The notes under the pieces: generated by a model
Databases searched by the model: none
Told to the model about the DNA's origin: nothing
The model's input: the letters and a program-made list of their open reading frames with translations, nothing else
From: a bacterium
GTDB taxonomy: Bacteria > Hinthialibacterota > Hinthialibacteria > Hinthialibacterales > Hinthialibacteraceae
Reading direction: 5' to 3'
NCBI GenBank assembly: GCA_016125385.1
Contig: WGLV01000002.1
Location: forward strand, 124,001 to 188,000
DNA length: 64,000 bases
Position numbers and translations under genes: made by a program
Shown: positions 45,970-55,940 of the stretch, piece by piece
How positions within the stretch are numbered: the first letter of the stretch is position 1
Layout of the letters: each line of letters begins with the position of its first letter

Positions 45970-46005
45970 GATGAGCGAGCCGTCAGGTGCGCTCATCTTT
46001 TTTTT
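45970..46005 (+). terminator. Rho-independent terminator after the Gfo/Idh gene
   Basis: GATGAGCG-n12-CGCTCATC followed by T8. Confidence 0.85.
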
Positions 46006-48001
46006 CGCCTCCGATGAGAATGAGTTCCTCCATCAAGTCGAGCAGATCCTGAACCCGGTATGGTTTTTTCAAAAATCGCAGCCGCGGATCGGTCATGTCT
46101 TCGGGCGGTTTTGTGATGGGATATCCACTCGACAAGATAATGGGAACATTGGGCGCTTCGTTTCGGATAATGCGCAATGCTTCGTCTCCACTCATGTTGG
46201 GCATGGTGAGGTCAAGCAGGATGAGATCGATTTCACCGCGATGTTTTCTGAATTGTTCTACGCCTTCCTCTCCGTTTTCCGCCAGATGAACGAGATAGCC
46301 CCTTCGTTGCAGAATCATCTTCACCGCATTGCGGACCGTGGCTTCATCGTCAACAACAAGGATGGAGTTTTGTGGAGAAACCTCTTTGGCGGGGGAAAAC
46401 GTAGAGGTACGCACGGGTTCTTTTTCAACCGGTGCGGATTCGATGGGCAAATAGACTCGAAATACGCTGCCCTCGCCAACTGAACTTTCAACCTGAATGG
46501 CGCCTTTGTGCGATTTGATGATGCCCAGCAGGGATGAAAGTCCCAACCCCCGGCCAGTAAACTTCGTTGTGAAAAATGGATCGAAAATGGAAGCGATTAA
46601 TGACTCGTCCATTCCGCATCCATTATCGGTTACGCGCAACTCCGCATACTCGCCGGCGCGGTTCGCGTAGCTGAAGCGGCAGCCGCCCAGTTCGTCCGCC
46701 GTCAACATTCGATGGGCAAGCTCAACCACGACGCGCCCGGAACGGCTTTCAATGGATTCCGCCGCGTTCGTTATGAGGTTGAAGGCGATTTGCGTGAATT
46801 GAGACGCGTCGCCGCGGATATAGATCGGCCCGGGGGGGAGTTTGAATTCGAGAACTGCTTTTTTAGGGATGGAAACCCGCGCCAGGTTCTCAAGATCATG
46901 TAATTGTTTGTTGATGTCGATGGTGTCGACGATGTTCTTGCTCTTGCCCGCGTAGGCGAGCATCTGGTTGGTCAGATCGGCCGCGCGTAACGCCGCCTGT
47001 TCGATGTCCTGCACGGTTTCCATAAGTTGTGGATCTTTTTGTGAGATGTCCTGATGCAGAATGTTGGCGTTGACCAGCACTCCCATCAGAATATTGTTGA
47101 AATCGTGCGCAATGCCTCCCGCAAGCACGCCCAGGCTTTCCAACTTTTGAGTCTGGCGGATTTTTTCATCAAACTCTTTTTGACGTTCTTCCTGTTCCCG
47201 TTGTTCGGTGATGTCCCAGCACACGCCCGTCATACAGGGTTTTCCATCGGATTGAGTGTGATAAACCCTGCCTTTTGTTTTGATGATTCGTGTTTCGGCG
47301 TTACGGGTAATCTGAAACTCCATTTCCAGCGGATCTCCGCTTCGGATGGCTCTCCCGATTCCGCTCCTCACCTTATTGCGGACACTGGGCAGGATGGCTG
47401 AAAAGAATTGTTTATAATTTGTTTTAGCGGTTTTGGAATTAAGCCCGAAAAGTGAGCACAGGCTATCATCTCCCTCAAAATGGTCATCATCAATGTTCCA
47501 ACTCCATGCGCCCGCGTTGGATGCAGCCAGGGCGAGTTGAAGCCGTTCCTGGCTGTGGCGCAGGTCAGCCTCAATCGATTTCCGGGTATCGATTTCGTAT
47601 TCCAATTGTTCGTTGATGACTTTCAGACCGGGCAGCCGTAACGCTTCCGGAGCGACCTTGATCAGGGCGGCGACGGTGATCCATGAAGCGATCGCAGTGC
47701 AGGCTTTCGCGATGGCTGAAATGCGGTAGATGGGGTGCCAGAAAATGATCGCTTCAACAAGGTGAACGGTTCCGCAGGTAAAAATGAACATACCAAACAA
47801 CCAGTACACGGAAGGAAAGACAATATCGCTTTTGCGCCGGTAATAGTAATACAAAATGACGCATGGGATGGCGGTGTAGGCGCCCCATGTCAAAAGGTCG
47901 GAGATAATGTGTATCCAGCCGTGAAACGCGGTCCAGTTTCCACAATACCAGCGCGGTGGAAAATCGGATGTATCGAACAAATTCGTGAGAAAGTGCCACA
48001 T
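45983..48001 (-). CDS. Hybrid sensor histidine kinase: ethylene-receptor-like TM sensor, PAS, HisKA/HATPase, receiver
   Basis: N-terminal ISDLLTWGAYTAIPCVILYYYYRRKSDIVFPSVYWLFGMFIFTCGTVHLVEAIIFW; PAS; GGIAHDFNNILMGVLVNANIL; VTDNGCGMD; ILVVDDEATVR...DLILLDLTMPNMSG. Confidence 0.92.
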   Translation of the reverse strand: MWHFLTNLFDTSDFPPRWYCGNWTAFHGWIHIISDLLTWGAYTAIPCVILYYYYRRKSDIVFPSVYWLFGMFIFTCGTVHLVEAIIFWHPIYRISAIAKACTAIASWITVAALIKVAPEALRLPGLKVINEQLEYEIDTRKSIEADLRHSQERLQLALAASNAGAWSWNIDDDHFEGDDSLCSLFGLNSKTAKTNYKQFFSAILPSVRNKVRSGIGRAIRSGDPLEMEFQITRNAETRIIKTKGRVYHTQSDGKPCMTGVCWDITEQREQEERQKEFDEKIRQTQKLESLGVLAGGIAHDFNNILMGVLVNANILHQDISQKDPQLMETVQDIEQAALRAADLTNQMLAYAGKSKNIVDTIDINKQLHDLENLARVSIPKKAVLEFKLPPGPIYIRGDASQFTQIAFNLITNAAESIESRSGRVVVELAHRMLTADELGGCRFSYANRAGEYAELRVTDNGCGMDESLIASIFDPFFTTKFTGRGLGLSSLLGIIKSHKGAIQVESSVGEGSVFRVYLPIESAPVEKEPVRTSTFSPAKEVSPQNSILVVDDEATVRNAVKMILQRRGYLVHLAENGEEGVEQFRKHRGEIDLILLDLTMPNMSGDEALRIIRNEAPNVPIILSSGYPITKPPEDMTDPRLRFLKKPYRVQDLLDLMEELILIGGEKKDERT

Positions 48002-52558: not shown

Positions 52559-53692
52559 TTATTTTACGTCGATTGCAAGAAAGGTTAAATCGTCATCGAT
52601 TTCACCTTGATGGTGAATTTTCAGATCGTGATACAACCGATCGATAAAATCACTTAACGGCAGATGAGCGTGACGCTGAATCATTGCTTTCAGACCTTCC
52701 ATACCCAGCATGGCGCCGGCGGCGTTTCGCGCTTCGAGAAAACCGTCGGTATACATCATGATCCGGTCTCCCGATTCGATGGAGGCGACCGTCTCATTTT
52801 GTTCGCTCAAAATCTTCGGAATCATACCCACCGGCGGCATGTGCGATGAAATCGCGTCAAGCGCGCCGGTCGCGCCGCGCCGGATGAACAGATCGGGGTG
52901 CCCTGCGTTGGAGACGGTCAGGACGCCTTCATCCAGATCGAGAACCGCCAGGCAGAGCGTAATGAACATGGAGGTTCGCTCAAGATTGGCGGTGATGAAT
53001 CGGTTTAAGAGATGAACGACGTTGGAGGGTGGGCGGTTTTCAGCGAGCCGTTGCTGGAGCTGCGTGTGAACCAGATTGGCGGTCAGCGCGGCGGAGACGC
53101 CGTGTCCGCTGACGTCGTACAGAGCGGCGGCGATGCCATGATCGCCGTGCTGGTGGATGCTCAGGTAATCGCCGCCAATGGCGATGAGCGGTTCATAGCG
53201 GTAATCGAGATGAAGCCGCGCGGTTTCGATTTTTTCAGGCAGAAGGCAACGTTGAATAATGCCGGCGTGGAGAAGGTCTTCATCCAGCTGACGCTGTTGT
53301 TCCTTCACCCGCTGTTGCATCTCGCTGATATTGAGCACTCGCTCGACGACCTTGATGAGGTAAGGCAGGTCGATCGGCTTGGCGACGAAATCGCTCGCGC
53401 CGCGTTTCATCGCTTCGATCGCCGATTCCATGGTACCGAACGCGGTCATGATAACCACAGGCGTTTCAATGCCGCGCTCGACGATCTCTTGAAGCAGTTC
53501 GAGCCCCCCCATTTTGGGCATCATCAGATCGCTGACGATGAGATCGGGTTTGGCTCCGGCGATTTTTTCCAGCGCTTCTTCGCCGTGGCCCGCTTCGACG
53601 ACTTCGTAGCCTTTAAATTCAGCGAAATCGCGCAGATTTTCGCGGATCTCGAGTTCGTCATCGACAATTAATAGTTTTTTCGCCGCTGCCAT
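52559..53692 (-). CDS. Response regulator with PP2C-type (RsbU/SpoIIE) phosphatase output
   Basis: LLIVDDELEIRENLRDF, DLIVSDLMMPKMGGLELLQ; IGGDYLSIHQHGDHGIAAALYDVSGHGVSAALTANLVHTQLQ; GDRIMMYTDGFLEARN. Confidence 0.95.
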   Translation of the reverse strand: MAAAKKLLIVDDELEIRENLRDFAEFKGYEVVEAGHGEEALEKIAGAKPDLIVSDLMMPKMGGLELLQEIVERGIETPVVIMTAFGTMESAIEAMKRGASDFVAKPIDLPYLIKVVERVLNISEMQQRVKEQQRQLDEDLLHAGIIQRCLLPEKIETARLHLDYRYEPLIAIGGDYLSIHQHGDHGIAAALYDVSGHGVSAALTANLVHTQLQQRLAENRPPSNVVHLLNRFITANLERTSMFITLCLAVLDLDEGVLTVSNAGHPDLFIRRGATGALDAISSHMPPVGMIPKILSEQNETVASIESGDRIMMYTDGFLEARNAAGAMLGMEGLKAMIQRHAHLPLSDFIDRLYHDLKIHHQGEIDDDLTFLAIDVK

Positions 53693-53858
53693 ATTGAGTA
53701 GATCCCGCCGCTTTGCCGTCGCTGAAAGAATGTGGAACTACTTTACAACAATCGGCCGGAAAATTGACTCCCCGTGTCATCCGTTGATCGGAAATCCCGT
53801 CGTGTGAGACAATAAAATGGAATCAAACTCTGCGACGCGCATCAGTGGGGATGAAATG

Positions 53859-55940
53859 CCGAAACATAACATGAATCGACGGCGCTTTATTGAAGTTCAG
53901 GCGTTGACCGGGGCGGGGTTGTTGATGGCGCCGAAACTGGCGTCAGCGAACGCCGGTTTGGAACTGAAACCAACCGGACTGATCGGAGGCTTGAAACAGG
54001 TCGAAGGAGAATCGCTTATCGAAGGCGGCACCTGGTATGAAGCCGAAACAAAAGGGCAGGGGTTTGAGTATCGCTTTGAAAAGGGCGCTTTAAAAAACGC
54101 ATCCTGGCTGATGGCTGATTTTCTGGTGTCAGGTCTTTACCTGACGGTATTTGAATTGCGCTTACGCGAAGGAGAAGACGGTCCATCTTTTGTGTTGCGG
54201 TACAAAGGTTTGAATCAGGCCGGCGCCCGAATTCGGCTGCCGCTTGAATCCGTCAATCAGAATCGCTGGCGACTCGAACGCGAGGGAGCCTGGTTGAAGC
54301 CGTTATGCAGCGGCGACCGCGTCGATCTGGAACAAGTGGATCGGATGCGGTTAACAGTAGCGATCAAAACCGATGATCCGGTCCGGTTTATTCAGACATC
54401 GTTTTTCGCAATGAATGAAGAACCGCCTCGTCTCGACAAGCCCGCGCTTCCCAAGGGTGTATTGCTCGATGAAATGGGGCAAAGCACGATTCATCAGTGG
54501 CCGGCGAAAACCAAAAGCGTGGATGAATTAAGTCAACGCCTGACCGATCAACTCAAACGTTCCAGCGCTGCCCAATGGCCGGATGGTTTTTCCGCTTGGG
54601 GCGGGTGGGCCGCCAATCCTTCAAAACCCTCGCATGCCCCCGGATTTTTCAGGACGCATCATGATGGAAAGCGCTGGTATCTGGTCGATCCGGATGGCTT
54701 TCTATTCTGGTCAGCGGGGCTGGATTGCGTCCGCGCGTCGATTGGCGCCAACTGCGGCGGTCTGGAAGCCGCGCTACGCTGGAAACCAGAACCGCCTGGA
54801 GAATATCAAAAAGCGTTTTCCGCCGAATCCGCCGATTATCTTTCCGCGAATTTTATTCGCGTGTTTGGCGCCGATTCATGGTATGACAAATGGGCGTCCA
54901 TCACGCTCTCCGAAATGAAGGCCATTGGTTTCAATACGGTGGGCAACTGGTCGCAGTGGGAGATCGCCCGGAAGGCGCGTTTCCCTTACGTCATCCCCAT
55001 GGGCTCAGGATGGAAACGTTCGCGCATGGTGTACCGCGATTTTCCTGATGTGTATCACTCCGATTTTGAATTGGACGCGGCGGATTACGCCGGCCAGCTT
55101 GATCCTTTGAAGGACGACCCCTCCATGATTGGTTATTTTCTGATGAATGAACCGACGTGGGGTTTTTCAAAAGAACCGCCTGCCGTGGGGATGTTGTTTA
55201 ATACCCCCGAGTGCGAATCAAGAAAAGAACTGGCGAAGTTTCTGGGAGAGCGTTACGCCGATTCCTCCACACTGGCGAAGTCATGGGAGCTCGACGTGGA
55301 TTTCAACCGGATCGCTCGCGGCGAGTGGAAAACCCGGCTGACGGAAACCGCGCGTAAAGACCTGGTGGATTTCAGTGAATTGATGGTCGAACGCTATTTC
55401 ACCATGTTGAGCGACCATTGCAGGAAGGTCGATCCAAATCATCTGAATCTTGGAATCCGATACGCGGGCGTACCGCCGGAATGGACGCTGCGGGGAATGC
55501 GCAATTTCGACGTGTTCAGCGCGAACAGCTATACCGAGAAAGTTCCGTTTGATGCGTCGAAAAAGATATCCACCATGTTAAATCTTCCCGTTATGATTGG
55601 TGAATGGCATTTCGGCGCGTTAGATGTGGGGCTCCCGGCTTCAGGGATCGGCCGTGTTGCGACTCAGAAGGAACGTGGCGCCGCTTACCGCTATTACCTT
55701 GAAGACGCGGCGGCGAATCCATACTGCGTGGGAGTACACTGGTTTACTATGTACGATCAGTCGGCGATGGGACGTTTTGACGGAGAAAATTACAACATCG
55801 GCTTTTTTGATGTGTGCAACCGGCCGTATGAAGAGTTGGCCGCCGCGGCGCGAATCGCTCACGAGCGGATTTACGATCTGGCGGCTGGCACGAAAAAACC
55901 TTTTGACGAACCGCCAACCTATCTGACGAAAATATATTGA
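53859..55940 (+). CDS. GH50-like beta-agarase family glycoside hydrolase, exported
   Basis: NRRRFIEVQALTGAGLLMAPKLASANA; RTHHDGKRWYLVDPDGFLFWSAGLDCVRASIGAN; GYFLMNEPTWGF; VGVHWFTMYDQSAMGRFDGENYNIGFFDVCNRPYEEL. Confidence 0.8.
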   Translation, partial: PKHNMNRRRFIEVQALTGAGLLMAPKLASANAGLELKPTGLIGGLKQVEGESLIEGGTWYEAETKGQGFEYRFEKGALKNASWLMADFLVSGLYLTVFELRLREGEDGPSFVLRYKGLNQAGARIRLPLESVNQNRWRLEREGAWLKPLCSGDRVDLEQVDRMRLTVAIKTDDPVRFIQTSFFAMNEEPPRLDKPALPKGVLLDEMGQSTIHQWPAKTKSVDELSQRLTDQLKRSSAAQWPDGFSAWGGWAANPSKPSHAPGFFRTHHDGKRWYLVDPDGFLFWSAGLDCVRASIGANCGGLEAALRWKPEPPGEYQKAFSAESADYLSANFIRVFGADSWYDKWASITLSEMKAIGFNTVGNWSQWEIARKARFPYVIPMGSGWKRSRMVYRDFPDVYHSDFELDAADYAGQLDPLKDDPSMIGYFLMNEPTWGFSKEPPAVGMLFNTPECESRKELAKFLGERYADSSTLAKSWELDVDFNRIARGEWKTRLTETARKDLVDFSELMVERYFTMLSDHCRKVDPNHLNLGIRYAGVPPEWTLRGMRNFDVFSANSYTEKVPFDASKKISTMLNLPVMIGEWHFGALDVGLPASGIGRVATQKERGAAYRYYLEDAAANPYCVGVHWFTMYDQSAMGRFDGENYNIGFFDVCNRPYEELAAAARIAHERIYDLAAGTKKPFDEPPTYLTKIY

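Follow-up and report, generated by a model that had tools for sequence, protein, structure and literature searches.

A bacterial hybrid histidine kinase with a predicted ETR1-type sensor domain

The stretch of DNA from an uncultured bacterium analyzed here (64,000 nucleotides, referred to throughout as the window) carries on its minus strand an ORF at 45983-48001, for which a hybrid histidine kinase with a sensor resembling that of the ethylene receptor ETR1 had been proposed. The question raised by this locus is whether the sensor belongs to the ETR1 family and, if so, whether ethylene or some other signal is what it detects.

Domain architecture

The ORF starts with an ATG, with a ribosome-binding-like GGGAG on its 5' side, and encodes 672 amino acids; coordinates, strand and length all agree with those originally given. 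The domain order ETR1_N, PAS, HisKA, HATPase_c, receiver was recovered by hmmscan against Pfam, as had been claimed for the PAS, HisKA/HATPase and fused receiver portion, and all of the following features lie on the minus strand. The sensor domain (aa 1-126; 47624..48001), made up of an N-terminal cap and three predicted transmembrane helices, precedes a PAS domain of the PAS_3 type (aa 178-260; 47222..47470; E = 1.8e-06) and a HisKA dimerization/phosphoacceptor domain (aa 293-351; 46949..47125; E = 1.2e-06), in which the phospho-accepting His299 lies within the motif GIAHDFNN. The HATPase_c catalytic domain (aa 397-521; 46439..46813; E = 4.5e-19) has its N, G1, F and G2 boxes (NLITNAAES at 408, DNGCGM at 459, FDPFFTT at 473 and GRGLGLSS at 483), and the receiver (Response_reg, aa 547-655; 46037..46363; E = 9.2e-20) has the phospho-accepting Asp597, the DD pair at 551/552 and Lys646, each placed from its motif positions in addition to the Pfam match. 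The presence of His299, the ATP-binding boxes and Asp597 identifies a hybrid histidine kinase, and with these residues and Lys646 all in place both kinase and receiver look intact. In sequence, the window protein combines such a kinase with a sensor of the ETR1 type. Its best NCBIfam matches are to a CckA-type kinase core and fall far under any equivalog cut-off.

Family and fold of the sensor

An HMM search of the N terminus had been named beforehand as a result that might refute the ETR1 assignment. The sensor matched ETR1_N (PF25487) over aa 27-123 with E = 7e-31 and 106.8 bits, against a curated Pfam cut-off of 27 bits, and the match spans model positions 2-97 of 97, which places it within the family; the same model had no matches in 14 control genomes. 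Structure prediction with AlphaFold2, built from a 27-row alignment, gave a confident fold of three long helices (27-55, 63-85 and 92-121; mean pLDDT 91.7, pTM 0.79), and these are the three predicted transmembrane helices of the sensor. In a phage collection we found generic kinase and receiver matches only, none of them covering the sensor among the matches listed.

The idea that an unrelated domain with three transmembrane helices resembles ETR1_N by chance can draw on the lack of a good PDB match, either by sequence (0 matches up to E = 1) or by fold (none at E <= 0.001, and no ETR1 sensor structure among the results). It is refuted by the HMM result and, given also the empty control genomes and the conservation seen family-wide, we assign it a negligible probability.

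Conservation of the predicted ethylene-binding residues

In Arabidopsis ETR1 (AtETR1), seven residues are needed for ethylene binding (D25, Y32, I35, P36, I62, C65 and H69), a list that reportedly originates with Wang et al. 2006. All seven have equivalents in the window sensor (D35=D25, Y42=Y32, I45=I35, P46=P36, I73=I62, C76=C65 and H80=H69), in keeping with the SD, AY, IP and CG-x-x-H residues picked out in the original prediction, and K99 aligns with K91 of AtETR1; identity to AtETR1 is 28% over the 95 columns of aligned helices. In the same way, D35, C76, H80 and K99 are in register with D35, C75, H79 and K98 of AzoEtr1, the Azospirillum brasilense receptor, and both these residues and D25, C65, H69 and K91 of ETR1 are named in PMC11819568. 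The HMM match, the residue alignment to AtETR1 and AzoEtr1 and the confident three-helix model together back the assignment of an ETR1-type sensor, and the window sensor is, by these predictions, a true homologue of the plant ETR1 ethylene-binding domain.

We then compared the site with the rest of the helices in 43 distinct sequences (mean pairwise identity 53%) of the clade to which the window sensor belongs, which is marked out by an RWxCG motif in the cap. Mean conservation is 98% in the seven site columns and 65% in the helix columns; seven helix columns picked at random equal the site in only ∼2 of 100000 draws (p about 2e-5). Most of the clade loci had been retrieved with the patterns W[YD]CGNWT and [NK]LFDTSD[FY] and the remainder with the Pfam model, and the DNA retrieval patterns excluded all seven site positions. 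This conservation bears on the proposal that the three helices are a mere membrane anchor or dimerization module and that the PAS domain does the sensing, which is in line with the PAS domain found in the window protein and some of its relatives. Few positions of the domain, however, are as conserved as the binding-site residues, and two relatives that give no PAS match, L008 and the HDOD fusion L016, retain both domain and site, and we consider a purely structural role very improbable.

Two clade members from Bacteroidota differ at the position of AtETR1 Asp25, a residue required for binding in AtETR1: L029 has Asn and L023 has Glu, and both keep the equivalents of Cys65 and His69. With these substitutions, the ligand is perhaps not uniform within the clade. 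In two sensors of the other major group described below (L065 and L066), Phe replaces the conserved Pro36.

Comparison with known ethylene receptors

Azospirillum is a proteobacterium, and its AzoEtr1 has been demonstrated to be an ethylene receptor: residues 1-130 bind 14C-ethylene saturably when expressed in Pichia (PMC11819568). The Azospirillum locus that we compared opens with MFGGVEAF, just as specified by the cloning primer used in that work (PMC11819568). Like the window protein, AzoEtr1 has an ETR1_N sensor with all seven residues, a PAS domain and a histidine kinase; its sensor (1-130) is 38% identical to the window sensor, with the same FDTS start and the same C..W spacing in the cap. 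It differs in having PHGxC where the window sensor has RWxCG, and in lacking a fused receiver, the separate AzoRR-etr1 gene adjoining it instead. Moreover, ethylene binding by AzoEtr1 is experimental, whereas that of the window sensor is presumed. SynEtr1 (slr1212) of Synechocystis is likewise a bacterial ETR1-type sensor kinase acting by phosphotransfer (PMC11819568, PMC7700396), a likeness taken from its published description, but its GAF photoreceptor sets it apart, as does its use of a separate response regulator, slr1213, as the signaling target.

AtETR1 shares with the window protein the three-helix domain of the Cu(I)/ethylene type and the hybrid kinase with receiver, but it has no counterpart of the bacterial N-terminal cap, and its signaling runs chiefly via CTR1 rather than by phosphorelay. 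It also carries a GAF domain.

The implication of the original prediction that a sensor of this kind outside cyanobacteria would be new did not hold, given that AzoEtr1 binds ethylene and that putative ethylene receptors had already been noted in further bacterial phyla (PMC11819568, PMC7700396). The window protein is an additional member of an already known family, and bacterial ETR1-type receptors precede it. A literature search for planctomycete ethylene receptors returned nothing relevant.

The N-terminal cap and the RWxCG clade

The sensor peptide quoted in the original prediction agrees letter for letter with the translation but begins at residue 33, and hence omits the conserved cap with which the sensor domain really starts (residues 8-32, LFDTSDFPPRWYCGNW...). 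Within this cap, which defines the clade, lies the motif RWxCGxW (R17, W18, C20, G21 and W23). In a tree of 61 sensors, for which the root is arbitrary, the bootstrap had not fully settled and SynEtr1, likewise a characterized ethylene binder, was not included, the RWxCG group containing the window sensor is split with support of 100/96 from a PHGxC group. The latter takes in AzoEtr1 and sensors from Rhizobium, cyanobacteria, part of the Planctomycetota and Flexithrix (three copies), and AtETR1 is placed next to it. The window sensor thus does not fall with the characterized receptors of the PHGxC clade, and AzoEtr1 and AtETR1, the characterized ethylene binders in the tree, lie outside the RWxCG clade, whose inner branches are poorly resolved and which occurs in several phyla. 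The cap Cys and Trp and the seven binding residues are common to both groups. In the literature searched, we found no characterized member of the RWxCG clade, nor one binding ethylene or copper.

This placement raises the question of whether Cu(I) might be bound at the same Cys/His site while the signal is not ethylene but copper level, redox state or another small π-acceptor ligand (CO, acetylene or other olefins). The conserved Cys76/His80/Asp35 site would fit a metal or other-ligand sensor equally well, and the clade has its own cap and stands apart from the characterized ethylene binders on the 100/96 branch. However, conservation extends beyond the metal ligands to the Ile and Pro positions that are important for ethylene binding in AtETR1, and AzoEtr1 and the cyanobacterial sequences also have the cap residues Cys20 and Trp23; the extra cap Cys is therefore no mark of a different ligand. 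The invariance of the cap motif is also partly built in, because the retrieval patterns selected for cap sequence. On balance we think a signal other than ethylene unlikely, while giving it appreciable weight. Rather more doubtful still is the wider proposal that RWxCG sensors form a second major ETR1-sensor lineage, common in Planctomycetota and their relatives, that has kept the copper site and become specialized to a non-ethylene ligand, whether CO, copper itself or an olefin of another kind. What is new here is modest and phylogenetic: the uncharacterized clade, of which the window protein is one ordinary member, is the only part likely to interest a specialist. Having an intact site and a different cap, RWxCG sensors could help to show which residues determine ligand specificity.

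Proposed mechanism

Given its homology to the receptors above, the window kinase is probably a Cu(I)-dependent sensor of ethylene, or of a small olefin, that alters the activity of a phosphorelay kinase. A dimer would hold Cu(I) via Cys76 and His80 of helix 2, with Asp35 of helix 1 positioning the copper site and pairing with Lys99 of helix 3, the putative output helix. Binding of ethylene, or a similarly small olefin, to the Cu(I) would send a signal from helix 3 through the linker to the PAS and HisKA domains, changing how His299 autophosphorylates and passes its phosphoryl group to Asp597 in the fused receiver, from which the group may move onward to an HPt or response regulator. The identities of metal and ligand, the sense of the regulation and the partner downstream are all inferred. 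Counting against this reading are the low identity to AtETR1, the absence from the literature searched of any ethylene- or copper-binding RWxCG member, and the variants at the Asp25 position; the PAS domain could also supply a second input. If the kinase does bind ethylene, then ethylene sensing reaches mostly uncultured lineages with no obvious plant link.

Genomic neighborhood

Upstream of the kinase on the same strand are genes for a peptide-type ABC transporter (a solute-binding protein and two permeases). Whether they share an operon with the kinase was considered, but some 216 bases intervene and no clear promoter or terminator signal was seen, leaving such a link no more than a possibility. 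Beside the kinase we saw no gene related to ethylene, a point against the ethylene reading, and the neighborhood does not identify the kinase's output. Farther upstream of the transporter genes, and again on the kinase's strand, the protein encoded at 52559-53692 (minus strand) joins a receiver to a SpoIIE-type PP2C phosphatase and is a conceivable candidate for a phosphorelay partner. An ORF of 707 aa at 53817-55940 (plus strand) has no Pfam match at E <= 0.001. Elsewhere, a Cu P-type ATPase was identified in the window genome, scoring 590.9 bits (cut-off 397), and such a protein is present in 14/14 control genomes, making it near universal and unremarkable.

Relatives and distribution of the family

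The closest sensor, from Planctomycetales bacterium ZRK34, is 62% identical to the window sensor and is its sister in the tree (98/94 support). The closest whole protein of like architecture, from Planctomycetota bacterium H5_PLA8 (L010), is 37% identical over 671 aligned positions, with the same ETR1_N-PAS_3-HisKA-HATPase-receiver order and a sensor that is 59% identical to that of the window and identical to that of L054; unlike AzoEtr1, it is an uncharacterized protein. The distribution of the ETR1_N family is patchy yet not rare: we saw matches in 19 of the 199 genomes sampled from Planctomycetota, in 4 of 68 from the phylum of L008 (labeled Candidatus Hydrogenedentota), and in 2 of 14 from the window's own phylum, a count that discounts one false match. 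This match, L002, looked like a second case within the window's own family but was rejected, scoring 25 bits, below the cut-off, and representing a different polytopic membrane protein. The window genome has a single ETR1_N copy, and plasmid-borne copies are found in Azospirillum, Rhizobium, Novosphingobium, Acaryochloris and others.

The outputs attached to the sensor also vary. L008 consists of ETR1_N, HisKA and HATPase only. Three proteins of ∼300 aa from Phycisphaerae and other Planctomycetota (L024:5001-5873, L027:4911-5876 and L028:4923-5834) have ETR1_N and no Pfam output domain, and no kinase gene directly follows the first of these. An unusual output is seen in an uncultured Gimesia (L016:4785-6335, plus strand), where an ETR1-type sensor is fused to HDOD without a histidine kinase. 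Flexithrix dorotheae, the source of L029, has four ETR1_N genes, with both the PHGxC and RWxCG clades represented among them.
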